The notes under the pieces are model-generated. The model was not told the DNA's origin. It did not search any database and worked only from the letters and a program-made list of their open reading frames with translations. Made by a program: the position numbers and the translations under genes. Shown one piece after another: positions 11,585-31,213 of a stretch of DNA of 64,000 nucleotides (position 1 is the stretch's first letter; each line of letters begins with the position of its first letter). The stretch comes from Levilactobacillus brevis (GTDB lineage: Bacteria > Bacillota > Bacilli > Lactobacillales > Lactobacillaceae), in NCBI GenBank assembly GCA_003666485.1, contig CP032931.1:1-64000 (forward strand), read 5' to 3'.

Positions 11585-12772
11585 CTAGAATTCCCGGTGG
11601 CCGCCTAAGTAGACTTGCTTATCGGCCTGCTTAACGTTAGCTGTGTCCGCTAGGGGATCAGCTTTGAGGACTTGGAAATCAGCAAACTTGCCCACTTCTA
11701 GCGTGCCGTATTCCTGGTCAACGCCCAACAAGGCTGCCGAGTTCAGACTTGAACATTGGTAGGCTTGGGCGGGCGTCATACCCACACGCGTTAACAGGCC
11801 AAATTCGTCTGGCGTTAGGTCAAAGCCATTAAAGGGAGTGCCGGCGTCGGTCCCACAAGTAAATTTCACACCGAGCTGAAAGGCGCGGCTCAAATTCTCA
11901 TAGGTATCGTTCAAGGCGTCGGCACATTTCTTCACTTCCCAATCCGGGAGAACGCCCTTGCCAAAGGTCGGGATCGTCCATTCGGCAATCAGCGTCGGGG
12001 TGAGGTAGGTTCCTTGCTTGACCATTTGCTTGGCCTCATCGGCGGTGACGTAAAAGCCGTGCTCGATGGAATCTACGCCGGCATCCAAAGCATTTTGAAT
12101 CCCGGGATTGCCCTCGGCATGGGCGGCGACTAAGCGGCGTTTGTGATGGGCCTCTTCCACAGCCGCTTGCATTTCGGCTACGGAGAGTTGCGGGTCTTCC
12201 ATGAAATCGTTGGGCGTCATGACCCCGCCAGTCGCCATGACCTTGACGGACTCGGCCCCCGCTTTAAACGCCTGGCGTACGCTCTTACGCATTTCGTCGG
12301 GAGAGTCGACCAGGTAGGCGGCGTGGGGTGAATCGCCGTGGCCACCAGTCATGGAGAAGGCCCGGCCAGAGGTCAGCATGTGCGGGGTGTGTGGCAACAA
12401 GCCTTGTCGTTGCAGGCGCTTGAGTTTCACGTCGGCGTCGTAAGTGGTCCCGCATTGGCGGACGTAGGTGACCCCCGACTTTAACAGGGTCTGCAAGTTT
12501 TGATAAGCAAAGACGGCGACTTCAGATTCGGACTGACCAAATTGGCCGCTAAATGAATCCGGGCTGAGCGTGACGTGGGTGTGCACGTTGAAGAATCCCG
12601 GCATGACGTATTGGCCGGCTAAATCGACCTGGTGATCAGCGGCAGCGGGGGTTCCTTGGCCCCGGTCAACGAGTTTGCCGGCGTCGTTATCCACCGTGAA
12701 CCAAGCGTTGGGTTGGTTCTGATCGGACGTGCCATCAAAGAGGGTGCAGTTAAAAAATGTGGTTTTAGTCAT
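11585..12772 (-). CDS. Amidohydrolase-superfamily metal-dependent hydrolase, copy 1 (prolidase/Xaa-dipeptidase-like)
   Basis: This is a 395-residue cytosolic TIM-barrel amidohydrolase without a signal peptide. It shows the metal-binding NVHTHV after the strand VMPGFF (about residue 60), the carboxylated-Lys region VKVMATGGVMTPNDF, the AAHAEG and SIEHGF histidine motifs, and the CGTDAGTPF aspartate. Related subgroups include imidazolonepropionase and Xaa-Pro or Xaa-Arg/Lys dipeptidases; the substrate here is unknown. It is 68 bp downstream of an OppA-like gene in the same operon, so hydrolysis of an imported peptide or acyl-amino acid is a reasonable inference. A close paralogue lies at 15265-16452. 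Confidence 0.85.
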   Translation of the reverse strand: MTKTTFFNCTLFDGTSDQNQPNAWFTVDNDAGKLVDRGQGTPAAADHQVDLAGQYVMPGFFNVHTHVTLSPDSFSGQFGQSESEVAVFAYQNLQTLLKSGVTYVRQCGTTYDADVKLKRLQRQGLLPHTPHMLTSGRAFSMTGGHGDSPHAAYLVDSPDEMRKSVRQAFKAGAESVKVMATGGVMTPNDFMEDPQLSVAEMQAAVEEAHHKRRLVAAHAEGNPGIQNALDAGVDSIEHGFYVTADEAKQMVKQGTYLTPTLIAEWTIPTFGKGVLPDWEVKKCADALNDTYENLSRAFQLGVKFTCGTDAGTPFNGFDLTPDEFGLLTRVGMTPAQAYQCSSLNSAALLGVDQEYGTLEVGKFADFQVLKADPLADTANVKQADKQVYLGGHREF

Positions 12773-12840
12773 GAGTTATTCCTCCTAAAATTTGGGTAAC
12801 TTGTGAAATAGATGAAGCTGAAATGGGGCGTTAGCGGCCG

Positions 12841-14448
12841 TTATTTCCAGTAAGCATATTGGTACTGCGCCTCGTTCAAGAGGGAGTAGTGTAAGCCGCC
12901 AACCTGTGAGCTAATTAATTTGGCCTCTGAAGGTTGATACAAAGGCAAGTAGCCCTTAACCTGCATCAAGTATTTGTCGGCCTGCATTAGCGTGTTGTAG
13001 CGAGTCAGGCCCGTTTGTTGGTTGGCGGTCGCTAGCAGACGGTTGTAGTGGGCATCCTGCCAATTGGTAAAGTTAACGGAATTGCCCTTGGCTGCGAGGT
13101 TGAGGTAATCGGACGCGTCTAACCAGTTGGATGACCAGCCAGTCAGGTTTAGTTCGAAGGTGCCGGCAAAATCGCGGGCGACGTGTTGGGCGTGGGGGAT
13201 CGCCGTGGTGGTGATCGTTAGGCCCTTCAAATGCTTTTCCATCACGGATTGTAGATAGGTGCCCACCTTTTTGTCATCGTCGGTATCGTCCGTTAAAAGG
13301 TTTAGGGTGACCGACGTTTTACCAGTTTCTTTTAAATATTTCGCCCAGTAGGCTTTGGCCTTGGCCACGTTATGGGGTAATAAGTTGCCAACCTCTGTGG
13401 CCATGTCTTGGCCCGTTTTCGGATTTGCCTGGTCGCCGCGTGGCACGGCACTCAGAGCAGCCTTGGAGCCATCTTGCAGCACCTGTTGGGTGAGCTGTTG
13501 GCGGTCAATGACGGCGGAAAGGGCTTGCCGGAGATTCTGGGACTTGGTCGCGGCCTTCTTACTATTGACGTAGAGGTAGTTCAGGCGGCCGGTGAGGTGC
13601 GTGTGTAGGTTCTTGTTGTTACGGTTCGCGCGGACATATTCGCCCGTCACGGTGGTCTCTTGGACCTTGTCACTCTTGAAGAGGTTGGCGGCCGTGTTCA
13701 CGTCCTTGGTCACGGCGACCTTGACCCGGCTGATCTTGACCTGCTTGGCGTTCCAGTAGTGGGGGTTCTTGACGTAGTGCCAAGTAGAATTACTCCCGGT
13801 CCAGCCGACCAGCTTGTACGGGCCGTTGGCAACGGTCTTGGCCGCGCTAGTCCCGTATTTCTGGCCGTATTTTTTAACGGCCGCCGTGTTAAGCGGATAA
13901 TACTTGCTGGCAACTAGATCGTTAAAGTAGGGTACGGCCTGACTCAGTTGAAATTGGAGCTTGGTTTTGCTCAGGGCCTTAACGCCGAGCTTGGAAGCGG
14001 GCAGGGACCCCTTTTGGACGGCCGCAAAGTTCTTAAAGGCGGACAGGATGCTGGCATACTGGGCCTTGGTCTTGGGGTCGGCCATCCGCTGGAGGGCGGT
14101 CACAAAATCTTGGGCAGTGACCGCCTGGCCGTTCGCCCACTTGGCATTCTTCTTCAGCGTAAACGTGTAGGTCTTGCCGCCGTTAGTAGGTTTCACCACC
14201 TTGGTTGCCACGCCAGGCACGATCTTGTTGGCGCGATTGTAAGTGTAGAGGCCCTCCATGGTTTGGTAAATGACGCTGGCGCTGTTGGTATCAGTATCTT
14301 TATTCGGATCAGCGGTGGCGGGTTCACTGGCCAGCGTGACGTTTAGCGTGCGGTTCTTATTCGTGTGACCGGCGGCGGAATGGCCGCAGCCGCTGAGTGT
14401 GACTAACAACAATAGCGAGACTGGCGCTACCCAAACAAAATGTTTCAT
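12841..14448 (-). CDS. OppA-like peptide-binding lipoprotein, copy 1
   Basis: This ~535-residue solute-binding protein of the SBP_bac_5 family would capture oligopeptides outside the membrane. It has a lipoprotein signal with lipobox LSGC near residue 22. The family blocks NKDTDTNSASVIYQTMEGLYTY, NAKWANGQAVTAQDFVTALQRM and NGPYKLVGW are present, and it ends QYQYAYWK. I choose ATG 14448, not GTG 14457, because GGAGG lies 9 bases before the ATG and touches the GTG. No permease or ATPase gene is adjacent, so it must share a transporter encoded elsewhere. A T-box leader precedes it and a parS-like site overlaps its start. Confidence 0.9.
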   Translation of the reverse strand: MKHFVWVAPVSLLLLVTLSGCGHSAAGHTNKNRTLNVTLASEPATADPNKDTDTNSASVIYQTMEGLYTYNRANKIVPGVATKVVKPTNGGKTYTFTLKKNAKWANGQAVTAQDFVTALQRMADPKTKAQYASILSAFKNFAAVQKGSLPASKLGVKALSKTKLQFQLSQAVPYFNDLVASKYYPLNTAAVKKYGQKYGTSAAKTVANGPYKLVGWTGSNSTWHYVKNPHYWNAKQVKISRVKVAVTKDVNTAANLFKSDKVQETTVTGEYVRANRNNKNLHTHLTGRLNYLYVNSKKAATKSQNLRQALSAVIDRQQLTQQVLQDGSKAALSAVPRGDQANPKTGQDMATEVGNLLPHNVAKAKAYWAKYLKETGKTSVTLNLLTDDTDDDKKVGTYLQSVMEKHLKGLTITTTAIPHAQHVARDFAGTFELNLTGWSSNWLDASDYLNLAAKGNSVNFTNWQDAHYNRLLATANQQTGLTRYNTLMQADKYLMQVKGYLPLYQPSEAKLISSQVGGLHYSLLNEAQYQYAYWK

Positions 14449-14456
14449 GTGAAACA
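14441..14456. promoter_or_regulatory. parS: parS-like ParB site (one mismatch)
   Basis: TGTTTCATGTGAAACA differs by one base from TGTTTCACGTGAAACA, a form of the Firmicute parS consensus. It overlaps the start codon and ribosome-binding region of the OppA-like gene. Confidence 0.6.
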
Positions 14457-14502
14457 CCCTCCTAGAATACGATTGATTAGAACGTTAGTGAATGCTGGGC
14501 AC

Positions 14503-14859
14503 AAAAAAGCACCCCTACAGAAAATGATTCTCTGTAAGGGTGCAGTTAGCACGGTACCACCTTATTTTTGCGACACGTAAAAACGCGTCGTCTTAACTAT
14601 GAACGGCAGGTTTCCTAGGGGTCACGGCCATGCTAGGATCAATTGAAGCCGTGACGACTCCTGCGATTCACTGCATTGATAACGGATGCTCCCGGTTGAC
14701 ACTTACTTAAATTTCAGCTAACTGCTCCGAAGGGATGTTCACCATGAGTTGGTTGACCCGCTCTCACTTAACCGGGCTCGCTGACAACCAAAATCACAGC
14801 TACTGGACTTCATCATCACATTTTAATTTTCTAATCAATTGTTAATGATTGCTAGTTTA
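14503..14859 (-). promoter_or_regulatory. T-box leader 1 with terminator
   Basis: Read on the minus strand, a Stem I follows the promoter. It has CAGTAGCTG base pairing, the AGCGAGCC distal motif and the GAA...CGGAG specifier side. Then come the T-box AAGGTGGTACCGTGC (about 14549-14564) and a strong terminator hairpin with a T run (14503-14543). Uncharged tRNA binding would favour the antiterminator and allow expression of the OppA and amidohydrolase genes. The triplet at the likely specifier position is ATC (14734-14736), suggesting isoleucine; I hold that assignment loosely. Confidence 0.85.
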
Positions 14860-14881
14860 GCACCAAATTCAGGAATGTCAA
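14854..14881 (-). promoter_or_regulatory. Promoter of T-box leader 1
   Basis: On the minus strand TTGACA (14876-14881), 16-bp spacer, TAAACT (14854-14859). The same promoter core recurs before T-box leader 2. Confidence 0.75.
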
Positions 14882-14906
14882 GCCGCAAATTTAAAATTTT
14901 TGGTCG

Positions 14907-15119
14907 TCAGCGGTCCCAAGCGTAGGCCCAATTGGCGATTTCAATGGCTCCGGCGATGCCAAGGATAAAGTGACTTAAAGACAGTAAAAGGTGCCAGTCG
15001 TCCCCCAACGGTAGCCACTGAATGGCAGATTCCAACAACCCAAAGATCAGCCAGAAACTCAGCGCGACCGTTACGAGCCAAGCCAGTCCGCGTGCGAATT
15101 GGCGGCCAAGATTTTTCAT
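14907..15119 (-). CDS. Small two-helix membrane protein of unknown function
   Basis: The 70-residue product has two predicted membrane helices (LAWLVTVALSFWLIFGLL and HLLLSLSHFILGIAGAIEIANWAY) with positively charged MKNLGRQ at the N-terminus. A GGGGGGAG ribosome site precedes the ATG, and a promoter is visible upstream, so it is likely real. It lies between the two copies of the T-box/oppA/amidohydrolase unit and is transcribed in the same direction. No family recognised. Confidence 0.6.
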   Translation of the reverse strand: MKNLGRQFARGLAWLVTVALSFWLIFGLLESAIQWLPLGDDWHLLLSLSHFILGIAGAIEIANWAYAWDR

Positions 15120-15152
15120 AGGATAGCTCCCCCCGTAGGTTTGTGTTTCCTC

Positions 15153-15180
15153 AGTATAGCAATGCTGGTGGGGGAGTCAA
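15153..15180 (-). promoter_or_regulatory. Promoter of the small membrane protein gene
   Basis: Minus strand TTGACT (15175-15180), 16-bp spacer, TATACT (15153-15158), about 35 bp before the start codon. Confidence 0.65.
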
Positions 15181-15264
15181 TTGGAAAATCGTTGTCATAA
15201 ATAAATAAATTTAAGCGACACTGGAACCCGAAACTTCAGCGGGCCTCGCTGTCATCGCTGGTCG

Positions 15265-16452
15265 TTAAAACTGACGGTGACCACCGAGGTAGACTGCCTT
15301 GTCGGGCTGCTTCACGTTGGCGGTATCCGCTAGGGGGTCAGCCTTGAGGACTTGGAAATCGGCAACTTTGCCTACTTCGAGTGTGCCGTAGTCGTCCGCA
15401 ATTCCCAGCAGGATCGCGGAATTAATGCTGGAGCACTGGTAAGCCTGGGCGGGAGTCATGCCCACTTTGATCAAGAGACTGAATTCATCAGGCGTGCGGT
15501 CAAAGCCGTTGAACGGCGTGCCCGCATCAGTGCCGCAGGTGAACTTGACGCCGAGTTTGAAGGCGCGCTTGAGATTGTGGTAGGTGTCATCAATGGCGTC
15601 GGCGGCCTTCTTGACTTCCCAGTCAGGCAAAACGTTGCGGCCCTTTTCGGGGATGACCCATTCGGCGATCGAAGTCGGGGTGAGGTAAGTGTTTTGGGTA
15701 ATCATTTGGTGAGCCTCGGCTTCGTTCACGTAAAAGCCGTGTTCAATGGAATCGACCCCCGCGTCCAGGGCGTTTTGAATTCCCGGGTTCCCTTCGGCAT
15801 GGGCGGCCACGATGCGCCGTTTGTGATGGGCCTCTTCAACCGCTACCCGCATTTCAGGGACCGATAACTGGGGGTCCTCCATGAAATCATTGGGGGTCAT
15901 CACGCCCCCGGTGGCCATGACCTTGATGCATTCGGCGCCAGCTTTAAAGGCCTGGCGAACACCCTTGCGCATCTCGTCCGGTGAATCTACCAGGTAGGCC
16001 GAGTTCCGACCGTCACCGTGTCCGCCAGTCATTGAAAAGGCCCGACCAGACGCCATGATATGCGGCGTTTGTGGCAGGATACCCGCGGCTTGAAGCCGTT
16101 TGAGCTTGATATCGACATCATAGGTGGCCCCACACTGGCGAATGTAGGTGACTCCAGACTTTAACAACCGCTGGAGATTCTTGTAGCCGAAGACGGCGGA
16201 TTCTGATTCCGACGCCCCAAAGCTGCCGCTGAAGGAGTCGGGGTTACTGGTGATGTGGGTGTGGACGTTAATGAAGCCGGGCATGACAAACTGTCCCTGG
16301 AGGTCAATTTGTTCATCGGTGGTGTCCGGATGGCCGGTGCCCTGCGCGGTTAGCCGACCGGTCGAGGTATCCACGGTGAACCAAGCGTCAGCGATATTTT
16401 GGTCATCACGCCCCGTGAAGAGGGTGCAGTTGAAAAAGGTTTTTTGGGTCAT
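15265..16452 (-). CDS. Amidohydrolase-superfamily metal-dependent hydrolase, copy 2
   Basis: This 395-residue paralogue of copy 1 has the same length and motifs: NVHTHI, IKVMATGGVMTPNDF, AAHAEG, SIEHGF, CGTDAGTPF. It also ends with the same LGGHR-X-F tail. Divergence is spread along the protein, so the duplication is not very recent. AAGGAGG lies 10 bases before the ATG. It is about 100 bp downstream of the second OppA-like gene, so the gene pair was duplicated as a unit. Cytosolic; substrate unknown. Confidence 0.85.
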   Translation of the reverse strand: MTQKTFFNCTLFTGRDDQNIADAWFTVDTSTGRLTAQGTGHPDTTDEQIDLQGQFVMPGFINVHTHITSNPDSFSGSFGASESESAVFGYKNLQRLLKSGVTYIRQCGATYDVDIKLKRLQAAGILPQTPHIMASGRAFSMTGGHGDGRNSAYLVDSPDEMRKGVRQAFKAGAECIKVMATGGVMTPNDFMEDPQLSVPEMRVAVEEAHHKRRIVAAHAEGNPGIQNALDAGVDSIEHGFYVNEAEAHQMITQNTYLTPTSIAEWVIPEKGRNVLPDWEVKKAADAIDDTYHNLKRAFKLGVKFTCGTDAGTPFNGFDRTPDEFSLLIKVGMTPAQAYQCSSINSAILLGIADDYGTLEVGKVADFQVLKADPLADTANVKQPDKAVYLGGHRQF

Positions 16453-16551
16453 AAGTGAGTCCTCCTTGATTGATAAATGGTTGTGTAACGTGCGAAATCA
16501 GTGACACACAAGAGAAGCGGGGGTCACCACCTTTCCGGGTAGGGGTAAGTG

Positions 16552-18156
16552 TTATTTCCAGTAGGCATATTGGTATTGGGCGTCATTGATGAGTGAATAC
16601 GTCAGGCCGCCCACTTGGCCGCTGATCAATTTTGCTTCAGCGGGTTGATATAACGGGACATAACCCATGACGTGCATCAAGTATTGATTGGCCTTGACCA
16701 GCCCCGCATAACGCGCTTGGCCAGTCTGGTTTTCAGCCGTCGTCAAAAGCCGGTTGTAAGTCCGATCATTCCAGTGCGTGAAGTTGACGGAATTATCTTT
16801 GGCAGCCAAGTCCAGGTAGTCCGAGGCGTCGAGCCAGTTAGTGGACCACCCGATCAGGTTGAGGTCAAAATCACCGGAGAAGTCGCGCGCAACGTGTTGG
16901 GCATGGGGTAAGGCGGTCGTGGTCACGGTCAGGCCTTTGAAATGCTTTTCCATCACGGATTGGAGGTAGGTCCCAATCTTTTTATCATCATCGCTGTCGT
17001 CGGTCAAAATGTTCAGGGTCACGTGGGTCTTCCCGGTGGCTGCTAGGTATTTTTTCCAGGAAGCCTGCGCTTGCGTCACGTTGTGGGGCAAGAGATTGCC
17101 CGTTTCGGTTGCCATGTCTCCGCCGGTTTTCGGATTGGTTTGATCGCCCCGGGGGATGGCGCTGAGGGCTGGCTTAGACCCGTCTTGGAGCACCTGTTGC
17201 GTGAGCTGTTTGCGGTCGATGACGGCGGAAACGGCTTGGCGAAGAGCTTGGGAGTCAGTGGCCCGGCGTTGGTGATTGAAGGTCAAAAGGGCCATCCGTC
17301 CCAGCAAATGGGTGTGTAAATTTTTCTCGTTGCGGTTGGCGCGAACGTATTCGCCACTAACGGTGGTTTCCTGGATCTTGCCGGCCTTGAAAAGATTGGC
17401 GGCGGTCGTGGCATCCTTGGTCACGGCGACCTTGATCCGGTTGATTTGTACGTGTTTGGCGTTCCAGTAATGGGGGTTCTTGACGTAGTGCCAGGTCGCG
17501 TTACTCCCCGTCCAGCCCACCAATTTGTACGGGCCGTTGGCAACCGCAGTGGTCGCGCTCGTGCCGTACTTACTGCCATACTTTTTCACTGCGGCCGTAT
17601 TGAGCGGATAATATTTGCTGGCCAGGAGGTCGTTGAAGTAGGGAACGGCCTTCGTCAGCTGAATGCGGAGCTTGGTTTTGCTCAGCGCAGTGATGCCCAA
17701 CTTCTTGGGTGAGAGGCGACTGCGCTGAATGGCATCGTAGTTCTTAAAGGCGGACAGCACACTGGCGTATTGCGCCTTGGTCTTGGGGTCAGCCATACGT
17801 TGCAGGGAGGTCACAAAGTCTTGGGCAGTGACGCGTTGCCCGTTGGCCCATTTGGCTGTGCGCTTCAGCGTGAAGGTGTAGGTCTTGCCATGATTGGTGG
17901 GCTTCACGATTTTGGTGGCAACACCGGCCGTGATGTGCTGCTGGCGGTCATAAGTGTAGAGGCCCTCCATGGTTTGGAAAATGACGCTGGCACTGTTGGT
18001 ATCTGTGTCTTTGTTGGGATCGACGGTAGCGGGTTCATCAGCTAAGGTGACGTTCAAGGTTCGGTTCTTAGTGGTTTGGCCGGCAGCGTTGCCACAGGCA
18101 CTCAGCGTGATTACCAGCAGCATCGTCAGGGGAAATAGGACAGTAAAATGTTTCAT
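16552..18156 (-). CDS. OppA-like peptide-binding lipoprotein, copy 2
   Basis: This ~534-residue SBP_bac_5 lipoprotein is paralogous to copy 1 along its whole length (LSACGNAAGQTTKNRTL lipobox region, EPATVDPNKDTDTNSASV, NDAQYQYAYWK at the end). I use ATG 18156; the upstream in-frame TTG at 18165 abuts the ribosome site. Like copy 1 it follows a T-box leader, overlaps a parS-like site at its start, precedes an amidohydrolase and has no transporter genes beside it. The two binding proteins may have different peptide preferences; the sequence does not show which. Confidence 0.9.
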   Translation of the reverse strand: MKHFTVLFPLTMLLVITLSACGNAAGQTTKNRTLNVTLADEPATVDPNKDTDTNSASVIFQTMEGLYTYDRQQHITAGVATKIVKPTNHGKTYTFTLKRTAKWANGQRVTAQDFVTSLQRMADPKTKAQYASVLSAFKNYDAIQRSRLSPKKLGITALSKTKLRIQLTKAVPYFNDLLASKYYPLNTAAVKKYGSKYGTSATTAVANGPYKLVGWTGSNATWHYVKNPHYWNAKHVQINRIKVAVTKDATTAANLFKAGKIQETTVSGEYVRANRNEKNLHTHLLGRMALLTFNHQRRATDSQALRQAVSAVIDRKQLTQQVLQDGSKPALSAIPRGDQTNPKTGGDMATETGNLLPHNVTQAQASWKKYLAATGKTHVTLNILTDDSDDDKKIGTYLQSVMEKHFKGLTVTTTALPHAQHVARDFSGDFDLNLIGWSTNWLDASDYLDLAAKDNSVNFTHWNDRTYNRLLTTAENQTGQARYAGLVKANQYLMHVMGYVPLYQPAEAKLISGQVGGLTYSLINDAQYQYAYWK

Positions 18157-18164
18157 GTGAAACA
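18149..18164. promoter_or_regulatory. parS: parS-like ParB site (one mismatch)
   Basis: TGTTTCATGTGAAACA, identical to the site at 14441, again over the start codon of the OppA-like gene. The duplication may have carried it. Confidence 0.6.
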
Positions 18165-18203
18165 ACCTCCTAGTATCAATTGATTAGAAATAGTTGTGGC
18201 CGC

Positions 18204-18536
18204 AAAAAAGCACCCCTACGGAAATAACTTCTCCGTAAGGGCGCTGTCGCACGGTACCACCTTAATTTTTACTCGAACATGAACAGCGACACTCCTAGAG
18301 GCCAAGTATCATCGGCTAGGTCCGGTGAGTTGGCCAGGTCGCGATTCACTGCAAGGATAACGGTTTGCGACCGGTCGGACTTACTTGAATTTCAGCGGAC
18401 AGTTCAGAAGGGAGTTCATGTCGTCGGGGTGGACCCGCTTGCACTTAACCGGGCTCGCTAACCAGGACCAACCACACTACTGGTCTTCATCATTACTTTT
18501 TAATTTTCTAATCAATTGTTAATGATTGCTAGTTTA
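18204..18536 (-). promoter_or_regulatory. T-box leader 2 with terminator
   Basis: On the minus strand it has the same architecture as leader 1: AGCGAGCC distal Stem I motif, GAACTCCCTTCTGAAC specifier side, T-box AAGGTGGTACCGTGC (about 18249-18264), and a terminator hairpin with T run (18204-18244). The triplet aligned with the ATC of leader 1 is CTC (18412-18414), which would read leucine. The promoter core TTGACA/TAAACT and the initial transcribed bases are conserved with leader 1. Confidence 0.85.
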
Positions 18537-18558
18537 GCAGGAATTATGCGAATGTCAA
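18531..18558 (-). promoter_or_regulatory. Promoter of T-box leader 2
   Basis: Minus strand TTGACA (18553-18558), 16-bp spacer, TAAACT (18531-18536). Confidence 0.75.
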
Positions 18559-18724: not shown

Positions 18725-19486
18725 CTACCGCGCATAGCGTAAAATAATGGCGACCAACGTCTTCGTAGCGTTGGGCAAGCCGACGTGTTCGTTATAGTAG
18801 GCGGCAAAACGTTCGTCCGCTGCATACAGATTGGCCAACCCGCGATGAGTCGCAGCTGTGTAATTGTTCCACGTGAAACATAGCCATTGGCGATGCAGTT
18901 GGTACACGCGCTGGGCCGTGGCACTGGCCAGGTCGCCACTGTGTGCCACCGCCTTTAATGCGGCGAACAACGCATGTTCAGTTGCCTGCATGGCCTGGTA
19001 GTCGGCAGCACTGAGGTGGGCGAATTTTTGTTGACTGTCGGTAAAGGCAGTCGTGCCATAGCGTTCACGCGCCTCATCACCAAAGGCTTGTTCATTTTGG
19101 GTGACTTGTGCCCGTTTAAATGCGGCAAATTTTTCGGTATCGGTCATTTGAGGACCTCCGTTTCTGGCCGCAAGGGTGCGGTCTAAGGTAGTCAGCAATT
19201 CAGTGAGGTGATCGCGCTGGGCGGCTAGTGTGGCCCGCTGTTTCGCTAGCGCTGCCGTTTGTTGTGCCGGGGACTGTGCGAGTAGCGATTGGATCTCCAC
19301 CAGGCTGAAACCAAAAGCTTGAAAATAACGAATCAATTGAAGTTGATCCACGGCGGTTGCCGGATAAATCCGGTAACCATTAGTTGGATTACGCTGGGCA
19401 GATAATAATCCAATCTGATCATAGTAGCGAAGTGTGCGGGGACTAACACCAGCCAATTTCGCTAGGGCTTGGATGCTGTAAGCCAT
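18725..19486 (-). CDS. MerR-family regulator with TipAS-like effector domain
   Basis: The 253-residue protein has an N-terminal MerR winged helix (YSIQALAKLAGVSPRTLRYYDQIGLLSAQRNPTNGYRIYP), a coiled-coil dimer helix rich in Gln/Ala (about residues 70-110) and a C-terminal TipAS domain (residues about 115-250, with FGDEARERYGTT and HRQWLCFTW). Such regulators (TipAL, Mta) sense hydrophobic or thiopeptide drugs and activate efflux or sequestration genes. The upstream promoter has a 19-bp spacer with a dyad, so autoregulation is likely. A perfect parS site lies inside the gene, as it does in spo0J of Bacillus. Confidence 0.85.
   Translation of the reverse strand: MAYSIQALAKLAGVSPRTLRYYDQIGLLSAQRNPTNGYRIYPATAVDQLQLIRYFQAFGFSLVEIQSLLAQSPAQQTAALAKQRATLAAQRDHLTELLTTLDRTLAARNGGPQMTDTEKFAAFKRAQVTQNEQAFGDEARERYGTTAFTDSQQKFAHLSAADYQAMQATEHALFAALKAVAHSGDLASATAQRVYQLHRQWLCFTWNNYTAATHRGLANLYAADERFAAYYNEHVGLPNATKTLVAIILRYAR
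18865..18880. promoter_or_regulatory. parS: parS site, perfect match
   Basis: TGTTCCACGTGAAACA, an exact match to the 16-bp Bacillus subtilis parS sequence, located within the MerR/TipAS gene about 17 kb from oriC. Confidence 0.9.
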
Positions 19487-24435: not shown

Positions 24436-24472
24436 GTAAGCGTTACCAAAAGTGAAAAGGAGTGGCGAACAA

Positions 24473-25609
24473 ATGGCAAAAGAAGTGCAAGCAGCAGTCG
24501 TAGAAAAACGAAACGATCCCTTCGTTGTGAAAAATGTGTTGGTGGATGACCAACCAGGACCTAAGGAGGTTTTGGTCCACATTGTTGCGAGCGGAATTTG
24601 TCACAGTGACGAAGCCGTGCGGGTCGGTGATGCTGGCGACCTGCCGTTGCCAATCGTGTTGGGCCATGAAGGCGCCGGTATCGTGGAAAAGGTCGGATCC
24701 GCTGTGAGTGGCGTGGCCGTCGGGGACCACGTGGTGTTGTCATACGCCTACGATGGCACGTGTGACAACTGTTTGGCTGGTCAACCCGCTTCTTGTGAGC
24801 AGTGGGTACCCTTGAACATGGGCAGTGGCAAGCGGCCGAACGGCAAGCCCGTCTTTACAGATACCGCCGACACCAGCAAGGGCCTGGGCAGCATGTTTAA
24901 CCAGGCTTCCTTCAGTACGACCACGTTGGTTCAGGAAAGTAACGTGACGGTCGTGGGCAAGGACGTTGACCTGCGGAAGGTTGGCCCACTGGGCTGTGGC
25001 TTCGTCACGGGGTCAGGGACGGTCTTCAACACCTTGAAGCCGGAACCTAATTCAACGATGGCCATCTTTGGGACTGGGGCAGTCGGCTCGGCAGCGTTAA
25101 TGGCTGCTAAGATCTCAGGCTGTGCCAAGATTATTTCTGTCGACATCGTGCCAGAACGTTTGGCTATGTCCAAAGAAATTGGTGCCACGGACACGGTCAA
25201 CTCCAAGGAAGTCGATGCCGTTGCCGCAATTAAGGAAATCACCGGTGGTAAGGGTGTGGACTACGCGGTCGACACGACCGGACTGACTGCCGTGATGAAG
25301 CAAGCTGTTGATGCCATGGGCATTAACGGGGTCTTCGCACCGCTGGCCGTTTCACAAAAGGAACTGGACCTCGTCCCATTCAATGACTTGGTTGCCACGC
25401 AAAAATCCGTGGTCGGTGTCTTGATGGGCAATGCGGTGCCACAGATTGAGATCAAAAAGTTGATTTCCTTCTGGCAAAAGGGCCTCTACCCCTTCGACAA
25501 ACTGGAAAAGACCTTCAAGTTCGCCGACATCAACGCCGCCGATCAGGCCTCAACGAGTGGCGAAGTGATTAAGCCAGTGTTGATTATGGATGAGGATTAT
25601 ACGGTTTAA
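24473..25609 (+). CDS. Zinc-dependent alcohol dehydrogenase, copy 1
   Basis: This 378-residue medium-chain dehydrogenase should interconvert alcohols and aldehydes or ketones with NAD(P)H. Catalytic zinc ligands appear in GICHSDEAV and GHEGAGIVE, structural-zinc cysteines in CDNCLAGQPASC, and the nucleotide fold in FGTGAVGSAAL. It resembles the benzyl/aryl-alcohol branch of the family; substrate uncertain. ATG 24473 follows AAAAGGAGTGG; an earlier in-frame GTG adds seven residues overlapping the ribosome site. It has its own promoter and terminator. Its last ~130 bp and an internal ~56-bp patch are nearly identical to copy 2, while the rest is clearly diverged. Confidence 0.9.
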   Translation: MAKEVQAAVVEKRNDPFVVKNVLVDDQPGPKEVLVHIVASGICHSDEAVRVGDAGDLPLPIVLGHEGAGIVEKVGSAVSGVAVGDHVVLSYAYDGTCDNCLAGQPASCEQWVPLNMGSGKRPNGKPVFTDTADTSKGLGSMFNQASFSTTTLVQESNVTVVGKDVDLRKVGPLGCGFVTGSGTVFNTLKPEPNSTMAIFGTGAVGSAALMAAKISGCAKIISVDIVPERLAMSKEIGATDTVNSKEVDAVAAIKEITGGKGVDYAVDTTGLTAVMKQAVDAMGINGVFAPLAVSQKELDLVPFNDLVATQKSVVGVLMGNAVPQIEIKKLISFWQKGLYPFDKLEKTFKFADINAADQASTSGEVIKPVLIMDEDYTV

Positions 25610-25623
25610 ATAAAAATTTAGGG

Positions 25624-25662
25624 CCCATGATGCTGACTTTTCGTTAGTGTCATGGGTTTTTT
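25624..25662 (+). terminator. adh copy 1 terminator
   Basis: CCCATGA...TCATGGG stem (from 25624) with loop near TTTTC, followed by a T run. Confidence 0.85.
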
Positions 25663-25688
25663 CGTTACTTTTGTGTTTGGTCGGTCAC

Positions 25689-25731
25689 TTGACGGACCCT
25701 GACGTAGCAGCTATTATGAAATTGTTCACAA
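25689..25731 (+). promoter_or_regulatory. Promoter of adh copy 2 with Rex-like operator
   Basis: TTGACG (25689-25694), 17-bp spacer, TATTAT (25712-25717). TTATGAAATTGTTCACAA (25714-25731) matches the Rex redox operator TTGTGAA-N4-TTCACAA in 13 of 14 defined positions and overlaps the -10. That implies repression relieved by high NADH, known for fermentative adh genes. Confidence 0.65.
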
Positions 25732-25758
25732 ACTACTGATTAAAAGGAGTGGCGTCTG

Positions 25759-26886
25759 ATGACAAAGAAAGTAGAAGCTGCAGTTGTAGAGAAGCGCAAC
25801 GCCCCGTTTGAACTGAAACAAATCTTGGTTGACGATAATCCTGGTCCCAAAGAAGTCTTAGTTCATATCGTAGCAAGTGGTATTTGCCATAGTGATGAAG
25901 CGGTCCGAGTCGGCGATGCTGGCGATTTGCCTTTGCCGGTTGTTTTAGGGCATGAAGGTGCTGGTATTGTCGAAAAAGTCGGCGCTGCGGTCGATGGTAT
26001 TCAGGTGGGTGACCACGTGGTTTTGTCCTATGACTATGATGGAACCTGCGACAATTGTCTAGCTGGTCAACCGGCGTCTTGTGTGAACTGGGGGCCACTG
26101 AATATGGGTGGCAAACGCCCGAATGGACAAAGCAGCTTTACCAAAGAAGATGGTAGCGACGTCAGCAATTTCTTTAATCAGTCATCGTTTAGCACAACGA
26201 CGCTAGTTCAGGACCATAATGTGACGGTCGTGGGCAAGGACGTTGACCTGCGGAAGGTTGGCCCACTGGGCTGTGGTTTTGTGACCGGGTCAGGGACTAT
26301 CTTTAATACCTTGAAGCCAGAACCAGGTTCCAGCATTTCCATCTTTGGGACGGGTGCCGTGGGCGCAGGTTCACTGATGGCGGCCAAAGTAGCGGGTTGT
26401 ACCCAAATTATTTCGGTAGATATCAAACCCAACCGGTTAGCGACTGCTGTGGAAATTGGGGCGACAGACACGGTCAATTCGGCCGAAGTCGATCCCGTCC
26501 AAGCGATTCGTGACCTGACTGGTGGTAAGGGTGTGGATTATGCAGTCGACACGACTGGGATTACCAGCGTGATGAAACAAGCCCTGGACGCGACGGGAAT
26601 CAACGGGGTATTTGCCCCATTAGCCGTTTCCCAACAGGAAATGACACTGGTGCCATTCAACGATTTGGTTGGCGCGCAGAAGACAATCACTGGTGTGGTT
26701 ATGGGCAATGCCGTGCCGCAAACTGAGTTGAAACGCTTGATCTCTCTTTGGCAAAAGGGCCTCTATCCCTTCGACAAACTGGAAAAGACCTTCAAGTTCG
26801 CCGACATCAACGCCGCCGATCAGGCCTCAACGAGCGGTGAAGTGATTAAGCCCGTGTTGATTATGGATGAGGATTATACGGTTTAA
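25759..26886 (+). CDS. Zinc-dependent alcohol dehydrogenase, copy 2
   Basis: The 375-residue paralogue of the preceding gene has the same zinc-binding (GICHSDE, GHEGAG, CDNCLAGQPASC) and nucleotide-binding (FGTGAVGAGSL) motifs. The N-terminal part differs from copy 1 mainly at third codon positions and scattered residues. The block around the DNA at 26220-26277 and the last ~130 bp are almost identical, pointing to gene conversion. AAAAGGAGTGG precedes the ATG. A separate promoter and a terminator on each side make it an independent unit. Likely role: redox balancing in heterofermentation. Confidence 0.9.
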   Translation: MTKKVEAAVVEKRNAPFELKQILVDDNPGPKEVLVHIVASGICHSDEAVRVGDAGDLPLPVVLGHEGAGIVEKVGAAVDGIQVGDHVVLSYDYDGTCDNCLAGQPASCVNWGPLNMGGKRPNGQSSFTKEDGSDVSNFFNQSSFSTTTLVQDHNVTVVGKDVDLRKVGPLGCGFVTGSGTIFNTLKPEPGSSISIFGTGAVGAGSLMAAKVAGCTQIISVDIKPNRLATAVEIGATDTVNSAEVDPVQAIRDLTGGKGVDYAVDTTGITSVMKQALDATGINGVFAPLAVSQQEMTLVPFNDLVGAQKTITGVVMGNAVPQTELKRLISLWQKGLYPFDKLEKTFKFADINAADQASTSGEVIKPVLIMDEDYTV

Positions 26887-26897
26887 ATAAAAAAAAT

Positions 26898-26945
26898 AAT
26901 GCTCGTGGACAATTGCCGATGAGGTAGTTGCCACGAGCATTTTTT
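26898..26945. terminator. Convergent terminator after adh copy 2
   Basis: ATGCTCGTGG pairs perfectly with CCACGAGCAT, with an A-tract before and a T-tract after, so it can serve both converging genes. Confidence 0.85.
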
Positions 26946-26960
26946 GTTTCACGTGAAACA
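26945..26960. promoter_or_regulatory. parS: parS site, perfect 16-bp palindrome
   Basis: TGTTTCACGTGAAACA matches the Firmicute parS consensus TGTTNCACGTGAAACA exactly. It lies in the 17-bp gap between the terminator and the stop of the reductase gene. Confidence 0.9.
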
Positions 26961-29285: not shown

Positions 29286-29568
29286 TTGACAATCAAAATG
29301 AATGATGATAAATTTAATATCAATCAAGAAGACGTTGCCAGAAGAGTAACCCGCTACCGTTTGCTTAGCGAGTCCGGAATGATGAGAGCCGGATCAAACG
29401 CACGGGTGAAGCGCATCTGGAAGTCGGCGCGGTGAAATTGGTAGCCCCGCCTGGGTCGTGTCCATTACCACACGGTGCATCAGCACGCTGAGAGATAAAA
29501 CAAGGTGGTACCGCGAGTCGTTCGCCCTTGTTGACCAGAGATGGTCGACGAGGATGGGCGACTTTTTT
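29286..29568 (+). promoter_or_regulatory. Promoter and T-box leader 3
   Basis: The promoter is TTGACA (29286-29291), 17-bp spacer, TAAATT (29309-29314). The leader has AGCGAGTCCGG/GAGAGCCGG distal Stem I elements, a GAAGCGCATCTGGAAG specifier side, the T-box AAGGTGGTACCGCG (29502-29515), and a long terminator stem AGTCG-TCGCCC.../GGGCGACT with T run (29515-29568). It differs clearly from leaders 1 and 2. The specifier triplet is not resolved; GCG (29411-29413) is the aligned candidate. Confidence 0.85.
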
Positions 29569-29602
29569 GCTTGGTACCGACAAAAATTGAGGAGTAATCA
29601 AT

Positions 29603-31213
29603 ATGAAAAAACTTTTAGGATTAGGATTGGGATTCATGGCCATCACCGCACTGGCCGGTTGTGGGGCCACACAGGCACAAAGCAACGCTGATAAGGCGTT
29701 AAACGTCACGATGATTGGGAATCCGGCGACCGCCGACCCAGCCATTTCGGGTGACAGTAACAGTTCAAGCCTGATTGCGCAAACGGAAGAGGGACTCTAC
29801 ACGCTTGATCAAAACGGCAAGGTCGTGGCGGGCGTCGCTGAAAAGGTCGTAAAACCAACCAAAAACGGCACGGTCTACACGTTTAAGATCAAGAAGAATG
29901 CCAAATGGGCCAACGGGGATGCGGTCACAGCCCAAGACTTCGTGACCTCCTTTGACTGGCAGGTCAATCCCAAGTCCAAGTCACAGGTGGCCAACAAGCT
30001 GAAATATTTAAAGAATTATGACGCGGTCCAAGCCGGTAAGAAGGCGCCATCCGCGTTGGGCGCGAAGGCACTGGACAAGCAAACCTTACAGCTGACATTG
30101 TCACAACCCCAACCATGGTTGCCAGATATCTTGGCCACGGCGGCCTATCCCATGAAGACGGACCTCTTTAAAAAGTATGGCAACCAGTACGGGACCAGTG
30201 CAGAAAAGACGATGTCTGAGGGACCTTATAAGTTGGTAGGTTGGAGCGGCTCGACCGACAGTTGGTCTTACGTAAAGAATCAGCATTACTGGAATGCCAA
30301 GGGTGTGAAGATCGCCAAGGTCAACGTGCAAGTCGTCAAGGATCCTGGGACCTCCGCCAACCTCTTCAAGTCCGGCAAGGTCCAAGAAACGGTCCTGTCT
30401 GGTCAATACATCAAGCAAAATGCCAATAATCCTGAATTGAAGACCACACTGAACAGTTCGATGCGGTTCTTGGAATTCAATGATAAGAAGACGGTGACGC
30501 ACAACACCAAGGTTCGGCAAGCCTTCTCCTACGTCGTTGATCGGCAAGCGCTGACCAAGAACGTCTTACAGGATGGGTCGGCGGCTGCTAAGAGCCTGAT
30601 TCCGACCGGTGATGGCGATGACCCGACGACTGGTAAGGATTTCACGGCTGATGTCGGTAATCTCTTGAGCTACAATCCCAAGAAGGCCACGCAACTGTGG
30701 AAGCAAGCCAAACAAGAACTGGGCATCAAGAAAGCCAATTTGGAGCTCCTGACGGCGGATACCGATGAACAAAAGCACGTTGCACAGTACCTGCAACAAC
30801 AGGCCCAAAAGTACATGCCAGGGCTGACGATCACCATCAAGTCCATGCCACTGGCCCAACAGATCGCCAAGGGCGCCGCTGGCAACTTTGACATCGACCT
30901 CGACGGGTGGACGACCGATTGGCGGGACCCTGCTGACTTCTTGCAAATGGCCGACGGTACCAGCTCCGTGAACTTTACCAAGTGGGATGACGCCCACTTC
31001 AACAAGCTGATGAAACAAGTCGATGATACGGCCAACCACACCACGCAACAACGGTGGGATCTGTTAAAGGAAGCCGACACCTACGTGACGAAGCAAGCCG
31101 GTCTGGTGCCGCTCTATCAACAGGCTAAGGCCCACCTGGTTTCGGATTCTGTGGGTGGACTGAAATACACCATGATGAGTGATGCCCAATATAAATATGC
31201 TTATTGGAAATAG
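29603..31213 (+). CDS. OppA-like peptide-binding lipoprotein, copy 3
   Basis: This 536-residue SBP_bac_5 lipoprotein has signal MKKLLGLGLGFMAITALAGC, with the lipobox cysteine at residue 20. Family blocks (EEGLYTLDQNG, NAKWANGDAVTAQDFVTSF, SEGPYKLVGWSG, YKYAYWK at the end) match the two minus-strand copies, but it is more distant from them than they are from each other. Ribosome site GAGGAG. It is a single gene under a T-box leader with its own terminator and no amidohydrolase or transporter partner. Peptide uptake upon amino-acid shortage is the inferred role. Confidence 0.9.
   Translation: MKKLLGLGLGFMAITALAGCGATQAQSNADKALNVTMIGNPATADPAISGDSNSSSLIAQTEEGLYTLDQNGKVVAGVAEKVVKPTKNGTVYTFKIKKNAKWANGDAVTAQDFVTSFDWQVNPKSKSQVANKLKYLKNYDAVQAGKKAPSALGAKALDKQTLQLTLSQPQPWLPDILATAAYPMKTDLFKKYGNQYGTSAEKTMSEGPYKLVGWSGSTDSWSYVKNQHYWNAKGVKIAKVNVQVVKDPGTSANLFKSGKVQETVLSGQYIKQNANNPELKTTLNSSMRFLEFNDKKTVTHNTKVRQAFSYVVDRQALTKNVLQDGSAAAKSLIPTGDGDDPTTGKDFTADVGNLLSYNPKKATQLWKQAKQELGIKKANLELLTADTDEQKHVAQYLQQQAQKYMPGLTITIKSMPLAQQIAKGAAGNFDIDLDGWTTDWRDPADFLQMADGTSSVNFTKWDDAHFNKLMKQVDDTANHTTQQRWDLLKEADTYVTKQAGLVPLYQQAKAHLVSDSVGGLKYTMMSDAQYKYAYWK

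Follow-up and report, generated by a model that had tools for sequence, protein, structure and literature searches.

The first 64,000 nucleotides of contig CP032931.1 of Levilactobacillus brevis (contig C1 of the 3.1-Mb genome), referred to here as the window, carry on the minus strand a three-part unit that is present twice. In each copy, a T-box leader precedes a gene for an OppA-like lipoprotein, which is followed by a gene for a COG1228-type amidohydrolase, and unit B is transcribed before unit A. The two units lie between rpsR on one flank and a MerR-type gene adjoining gdpP on the other (names assigned by eye), with the following parts:

18531..18558, minus strand: candidate promoter-like site of unit B from a consensus scan (TTGACA-16-TAAACT, TG before the second hexamer)
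18234..18502, minus strand: T-box leader of unit B, most likely Leu (RF00230, 82.1 bits, E 3.8e-17)
18412..18414, minus strand: specifier CUC of unit B, most likely Leu, in a region one base shorter than in unit A
18209..18245, minus strand: T-box terminator of unit B, a 16-pair hairpin found by scan
16552..18156, minus strand: orphan OppA-like lipoprotein B (PF00496, E 1.4e-62)
15265..16452, minus strand: COG1228-type amidohydrolase B (PF01979, E 3e-50)
14854..14881, minus strand: candidate promoter-like site of unit A from the same scan (TTGACA-16-TAAACT, TG before the second hexamer)
14533..14825, minus strand: T-box leader of unit A, Ile (RF00230, 97.9 bits, gathering score 93)
14734..14736, minus strand: specifier AUC (Ile) of unit A, its register compared with tRNA synthetase leaders
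14509..14543, minus strand: T-box terminator of unit A, a 16-pair hairpin found by scan
12841..14448, minus strand: orphan OppA-like lipoprotein A (PF00496, E 1.8e-66)
11585..12772, minus strand: COG1228-type amidohydrolase A (PF01979, E 3.6e-46), predicted to release a C-terminal amino acid

The original prediction, made from the sequence of the window, was of a duplicated T-box/orphan OppA/amidohydrolase unit sensing the scarcity of one amino acid. The unit itself, with both copies where they had been placed, the joint duplication of its parts and the orphan status are borne out, and the sensing of a single amino acid is not. Comparing the copies supports a duplication of all three parts as one set: the amidohydrolases are identical at 306 of 395 positions and the binding proteins at 413 of 538 (77% in both cases), with DNA identities of 68-79% in five 300-nt blocks of the genes and 82% in one 131-nt block of the leaders. 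The conservation of the unit in other species, described below, excludes a chance arrangement. The scan listed no promoter-like site on the minus strand in the gaps between lipoprotein and hydrolase genes, and only in unit B did it list a terminator-like site there, weak and with 6 pairs and the tail CTCTTGTG; judging from the sequence, the two genes of each unit are likely co-transcribed. No transporter genes are seen between or beside the units. Opp/Dpp-type ATPases (PF08352) give four matches in the genome, only at 736-738 kb and 1383-1384 kb, and the lipoproteins would thus have to share a translocon encoded elsewhere.

Leader A matches RF00230 over the full model and above the gathering score. 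Both leaders carry the UGGU T-box bulge, and the aligned specifier regions read GAA-C-AUC-CCUUC-GGAG in unit A and GAA-CUC-CCUUC-UGAA in unit B, which rules out an identical specifier in the two units. To calibrate the register, T-box leaders of tRNA synthetases encoded in this genome were used, the genes being identified by eye from the N-termini of their translations. The codon lies 6 bases before GAG in tyrS (UAC), valS (GUA) and leuS (CUU), and since AUC occupies the same register in unit A, this unit is assigned to Ile. In unit B, CUC directly follows GAA, with 9 bases from this GAA to the next GAG/GAA, as for CUU in leuS; because it takes the place of the leuS codon at the same total distance, the unit B specifier is most likely CUC (Leu). 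The 6-base spacing is matched by transporter leaders (brnQ, GUU; an amino acid ABC permease, CAC), which are not independent tests. The genome contains tRNA-Ile(GAU) and tRNA-Leu(AAG), whose A73 fits the UGGU of both T-boxes. AUC with the UGGU bulge therefore matches tRNA-Ile(GAU) in unit A, and CUC with the same bulge matches tRNA-Leu(AAG) in unit B, provided that position 34 is inosine. A fifth Leu-like tRNA site, not called by ARAGORN, was noted at 1938176.

Among 36 distinct leaders (L. brevis counted once, with its B unit taken from genome G004, and some leaders of single-copy genomes not included), 24 read AUC and 12 read CUC. The AUC leaders comprise 19 of Levilactobacillus type, two of them from records titled only Lactobacillus sp., four from Secundilactobacillus and one from a metagenome-assembled genome (UBA5807). 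All 12 CUC leaders come from Levilactobacillus, and CUC is found in 12 of 12 unit-B-type leaders. A genus search found a hydrolase match in 22 of 35 genomes, 11 with a tandem pair and 11 with one close copy. All 11 tandem pairs correspond to loci where both leaders could be read, with one AUC and one CUC in each, and it is this result that speaks against a response to one scarce amino acid. Across the wider family, a hydrolase match at E 0.001 occurs in 190 of the 397 genomes sampled, weak matches included.

In the tree of binding proteins, the 11 CUC rows form one clade (support 96/97), and a single change of label suffices over 32 rows, as it does in 94% of 200 bootstrap trees. This tree was built without unit A of L073 (start out of frame), L087 (split), L092 (chimera) and two distant L100 proteins; both this tree and that of the hydrolases leave out the L074 rows, which derive from the same genome as L156. 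The outside group, composed of Secundilactobacillus and the metagenome-assembled genome, is entirely AUC, which makes Ile the ancestral state. Most simply, the Leu copy would have arisen once, within Levilactobacillus: one ancestral Ile unit would have been duplicated, and the specifier loop of the copy would have lost one base, turning AUC into CUC. The single-copy genome of L. suantsaiihabitans (G026, L092) has retained a CUC leader. Its binding protein (L092 4309-5918) resembles A for 182 residues, the first third, and then B, as if the copies had recombined. S. malefermentans (L089) has two hydrolase genes behind an Ile T-box, with no binding protein. Three tandem hydrolase paralogues were observed in a Lacticaseibacillus record (L093) and a related metagenome-assembled genome (L094), where the pattern found no upstream T-box core.

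The hydrolases retain an intact metal site in both copies (H64, H66, K177, H218, H238 and D309). We take the H64/H66 HxH motif, K177 as carboxylated lysine, H218 with H238, and D309 to be the ligands, in line with the metal-site roles of the superfamily. H64, H66, K177, H218 and D309 are kept in 53 of 53 hydrolase rows and H238 in 52, with one gap. The AlphaFold model of the hydrolase has a mean predicted local distance difference test score (pLDDT) of 89.6, and its best fold match is the Lys/Arg carboxypeptidase Cc2672 (3mtw; Z 49.6, root-mean-square deviation 2.9 over 387 residues), followed by an Xaa-Pro dipeptidase (2qs8, Z 48.9), a putative prolidase (48.7), an arginine carboxypeptidase (3be7, 48.1), a prolidase (3n2c, 46.4) and the ochratoxin amidohydrolase ADH3 (45.7), all under the names given by their depositors. 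Dipeptidases and carboxypeptidases are thus among the closest solved members, a point on which the original interpretation is supported. Presumably, as the solved COG1228 relatives do, the enzyme releases a C-terminal amino acid. The candidate substrates proposed earlier, Xaa-Pro and Xaa-Arg, fit the family annotation, but the specifiers suggest substrates that contain Ile and Leu. Assignment to the Xaa-Pro dipeptidase equivalog NF051886 was rejected, with 237.2 and 238.6 bits against a curated score of 500. Hydrolase A has no match in PHROGs, and no secretion signal was seen in the hydrolase. In the neighbourhoods of the 11 hydrolase loci listed, for which 10 neighbour proteins were scanned, an M20 peptidase lies near in four (L090, L093, L100 and L102), an OppA-type protein adjoins in L097 and L100, and an asparaginase in L095, where one neighbour protein gave no match in the domain scan.

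The lipoproteins belong by domain to the SBP_bac_5 family, as the hydrolases do to Amidohydro_1, and their binding of peptides with a free N-terminus is putative. A lipobox-like motif (LSGC/LSAC) was read by eye, and the structure model of the binding protein has a mean pLDDT of 73.2. For lipoprotein A the ATG at 14448 is a likelier start than the GTG from 14457 of the longer frame, and for lipoprotein B the ATG at 18156 is likelier than the TTG from 18165. Two near-exact parS-like (ParB) sites overlap these ATG codons. They are part of a set of four in the window (14441-14456, 18149-18164, 18865-18880 and 26945-26960), two exact and two with one mismatch relative to the consensus, amounting to 8 strand hits against 0.12 expected. 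In the related loci, a parS-like site with at most two mismatches occurs at 14 of 31 unit starts, and in unit B of L. mulengensis (L072), where the start codon is GTG, the site matches the consensus exactly.

Neither ilvC nor ilvD has a match in the genome, while 14 of 14 control genomes match. The host is therefore presumably auxotrophic for branched-chain amino acids, which fits a role of the units in scavenging Ile and Leu. We favour, with reasonable confidence, a duplicated system for branched-chain amino acid scavenging in which unit A answers a lack of Ile and unit B a lack of Leu. Each leader would act as a transcriptional T-box switch: when uncharged tRNA-Ile (A) or tRNA-Leu (B) accumulates, it would pair with both specifier and antiterminator, formation of the terminator would be prevented, and the binding protein and amidohydrolase would be made together. 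The lipoprotein would then capture peptides (or other conjugates) that contain Ile or Leu and pass them to an Opp translocon, and the cytoplasmic amidohydrolase would free the C-terminal Ile or Leu. Since the enzyme keeps its metal site and resembles hydrolases that release amino acids, the most plausible reading is that peptides would be captured and then cleaved at the C-terminus.

Several observations weigh against this explanation. Its support comes from sequence, family and context, and the tRNA response, the shared Opp translocon, the substrates and the direction of cleavage are inferred. Leader B, despite its full-length match, does not reach the RF00230 gathering score, although Rfam noise is ruled out by the conservation of its orthologues. 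tRNA-Leu(GAG) was not found in the genome's tRNA list, which is incomplete (no Trp, Cys or His), and CUC would consequently require the AAG tRNA with inosine at position 34. Thirteen of the 35 genus genomes have no hydrolase match. The hydrolase tree needs two label changes; a single change is enough in 13% of 200 bootstrap replicates, so that one origin is still conceivable. In L. mulengensis, the hydrolase of unit B is missing some 50 residues, including H238. Finally, four Lactiplantibacillus loci have a hydrolase with neither a binding-protein match nor a T-box core within 6 kb upstream, and in one Lactiplantibacillus locus (L096) the hydrolase adjoins a transporter of the sodium:sulfate-symporter type and a Zn_peptidase_2 gene.

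The specialisation could also be confined to regulation, a tentative reading to which we give considerable weight. Both units would handle the same broad range of hydrophobic peptides, and the specifiers would let a shortage of Ile or of Leu alone switch on the corresponding copy. In its favour are the 77% identity of the proteins and the hydrolases, in which the Ile and Leu clades have fixed different residues at just 3 of 395 positions, all conservatively (V67I, L133M and L343I), which also counts against the branched-chain scavenging pair with distinct substrates. For branched-chain symporters controlled by a T-box for a single amino acid, Wels et al. expect a range broader than the control, but they expect binding-protein-dependent systems to be more specific (PMC2494555). 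In the binding protein, nine sites are fixed between the clades (44, 292, 294, 297, 387, 392, 420, 436 and 439 in the 538-residue frame), five of which fall in 292-297 and 436-439, the latter abutting the GW pocket motif; these segments were chosen after the result and are thus a lead, not a test.

The identity of the amino acid sensed by unit B depends on the register, which the one-base deletion leaves ambiguous. Codon spacing is loose in the calibrating leaders: pheS UUC and glyQ GGC sit 7 bases before GAG, the 6-base register gives GAC in hisS with CAC two bases on, leuS can alternatively be read as UUG one base further, and others, such as argS, thrS, alaS, asnS, trpS and ileS, have no clear GAG from which to measure. 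For unit B the register thus also permits ACU (Thr) or UCC (Ser), although they are less likely than CUC, and we consider it unlikely that threonine or serine is sensed in place of leucine. ACU lies 7 bases before GAA, a spacing as in pheS and glyQ, and the genome has a tRNA-Thr(AGU) that also carries A73, so that the discriminator base failed as an argument against Thr. Nevertheless, ACU would reach into the conserved GAA and use its final A, an arrangement not seen among the calibrating leaders, and thrS has ACC with UGGA. For Ser, no tRNA-Ser(GGA) was found in the same incomplete tRNA list. CUC, on the other hand, preserves both the leuS position and the 6-base spacing.

A different view of the substrates arises from the binding pocket. 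The unit lipoproteins carry a GW-S-S/T-N/S motif where most other OppA proteins compared have GW-x-x-D. At the position of this Asp, the 32 unit proteins have 25 Asn, 7 Ser and no Asp, compared with Asp in 8 of 10 OppA-like proteins encoded elsewhere in the genome, in 16 of 24 further OppA proteins (two of these, L161 and L162, about 70% identical to the unit A protein) and in five solved relatives. In Salmonella OppA the equivalent Asp419 binds the N-terminal amine of the peptide, and likewise in the E. coli and Borrelia proteins (PMC5736914). The units could accordingly import and open N-blocked Ile or Leu conjugates (lactoyl-, pyroglutamyl- or gamma-glutamyl-amino acids) instead of ordinary peptides, with a binding protein that no longer anchors a free N-terminus and an enzyme that is an N-acyl amino acid hydrolase; ochratoxin amidohydrolases and a prolidase solved with an N-methylphosphonate-proline are among the close structural relatives of this enzyme. 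We regard this as improbable. Lactococcus OppA holds peptides via a hydrophobic pocket, the Asp mechanism being characteristic of Gram-negative proteins (PMC5736914), so the loss of Asp needs no blocked ligands and is no proof of them, and two other proteins of the genome also lack it (Val in the Met T-box protein, Gln in the 1196-kb protein).

That the binding proteins are mainly surface adhesins, with the T-box as a general starvation response, is very improbable: Lp_0018 of L. plantarum is reported to bind the heparan sulfate of cancer cells (PMC11109227), but its orthology to the unit proteins is not established, the same paper describes OppA as serving peptide uptake and did not succeed in deleting the gene, and T-box control with hydrolase pairing fits nutrition better.

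Besides the T-box core, the leaders contain a candidate long-range helix. The segment CAAUUGAUUAGAA, near the presumed 5' end, is able to pair with UUCUAAUCAAUUG, located past the terminator and 4-11 bases before GGAGG. The arms map as follows:

14829..14841, minus strand: helix 5' arm of unit A (alignment A3, columns 12-24)
14470..14482, minus strand: helix 3' arm of unit A, just upstream of the Shine-Dalgarno sequence (alignment A3, columns 396-408)
18506..18518, minus strand: helix 5' arm of unit B (alignment A3)
18177..18189, minus strand: helix 3' arm of unit B (alignment A3)

Because the 3' arm of this 13-bp helix lies past the terminator, the helix would form only in the read-through, antiterminated mRNA. 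Over 31 aligned leaders, 93.5% of cells pair, and sliding the partner by 1-3 columns reduces pairing to 12-47%. The alignment (A3) was made without L079, L090 and L091, whose arms were viewed by eye, the partial unit-B leaders L076 and L081, and L074. Two-sided changes occur at 4 of the 13 helix pairs, a number reached by 1 of 500 shuffles, and 12 cells show such a change against 1.1 in shuffles (0 of 500). When the 3' arms were permuted among leaders, the observed pairing was reached in 0 of 5000 permutations, and likewise in 0 of 5000 for the 16 distinct arm pairs. Kinship among the rows inflates the covariation counts; two-sided changes are nonetheless present in five different arm pairs (CAATCG/CGATTG, CAAATG/CATTTG, CAAACG/CGTTTG, CAGTTG with TAACTG, and CGTTAG/CTAATG). 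The distal seven pairs alone give a weaker signal, with one pair showing a two-sided change. An inverted repeat serving as a protein operator or as mobile-element ends is disfavoured, as both arms change together.

The helix is present in the minimum-energy fold and the centroid of leader B and absent from the minimum-energy fold of leader A. Three of the 25 T-boxes in the genome stand out: the helix score is reached by 1 of 200 shuffles for A, 0 of 200 for B and 1 of 200 for a metE-like leader (gene named by eye); the next-ranked are the orphan OppA gene at 29 kb (14 of 200), ileS (22) and asnA (30). For 28 metE-type leaders of the genus (L025, L200-L229; 28 of 30 loci, two having been lost by the pattern), matched arms score 23.0 on average and exchanged arms 19.0 (0 of 2000 permutations), the long helix not being present in every one of the 28. 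The leaders may carry a second regulatory layer, a reading that we hold tentatively: a conserved, covarying helix from the 5' end to the bases before the Shine-Dalgarno sequence, closing the leader of the antiterminated mRNA into one domain and protecting the 5' end from decay or setting translation. These two functions are guesses as to what the helix may do. With its presence in two T-box leader types of the genus, the helix may be an overlooked element of T-box leaders. The available text of the T-box literature, including PMC3771891, PMC9382623 and PMC2494555, describes no comparable helix, in a limited search that does not establish its absence from print. If the closing helix is active, T-box control would not end at the terminator.

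The units share their leader architecture, UGGU bulge, terminator and specifier reading with the T-box attenuators (RF00230) that precede amino acid transporters, as described in lactobacilli (PMC2494555). Unlike those, they control an orphan peptide-binding protein and a hydrolase, with an apparent Ile-to-Leu switch by a one-base deletion in a duplicated unit, and they have the long-range closing helix. The specifier switch follows an already described route, namely route ii of Wels et al. 2008, in which a T-box co-evolves with its operon and diverges to a new specificity (PMC2494555); likewise, the present units are a case of an operon whose leader takes a new specifier. The part of that paper available to us does not mention these units, and its table lists, for L. 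plantarum, one T-box ABC entry with no specificity assigned.

The T-box-led OppA genes form a predicted set of amino-acid-specific binding proteins with few translocons. The Opp system of Borrelia is alike in that several binding proteins share few permeases: its five, which are under differential regulation, use two permeases and a single ATPase pair (PMC5736914). The units differ from it in their control by T-boxes and in the pairing of the binding protein with a hydrolase. With the COG1228 members 3mtw, 3be7, 2qs8/3n2c and ADH3, the hydrolases share the fold over nearly the whole chain, the TGGH motif and the positions of the metal ligands, and differ from them in their 28-31% identity, the predicted C-terminal Ile/Leu specificity and the T-box operon partner. 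If the favoured Ile/Leu assignment is true, the units are a natural pair of similar operons in which the amino acid of an RNA sensor was changed by a one-base deletion. Such a pair would offer a direct test of whether regulation and substrate range co-evolve, that is, whether receptor and enzyme have followed or not. Substrates are thereby also predicted for an uncharacterised COG1228 subgroup and for a binding-protein family without the usual N-terminus anchor.

A third T-box-led orphan OppA-like gene is located in the window at 29326-31213 (plus strand); its product is 51% identical to the unit A binding protein, its specifier is probably CGC (Arg) and its pocket motif has the usual Asp. Other T-box-led OppA-like genes on the contig are found at 2562-2564 kb (L004; AUC, Ile), 227-229 kb (L013; AUG, Met) and 150-152 kb (L008; UGG, Trp). 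Between the two units, a candidate open reading frame for a hydrophobic protein of 70 amino acids (14907..15119, minus strand) has a promoter-like site upstream at 15180-15153. At 24452-26886 (plus strand), two similar alcohol-dehydrogenase-like genes, recognised by eye, are arranged in tandem.

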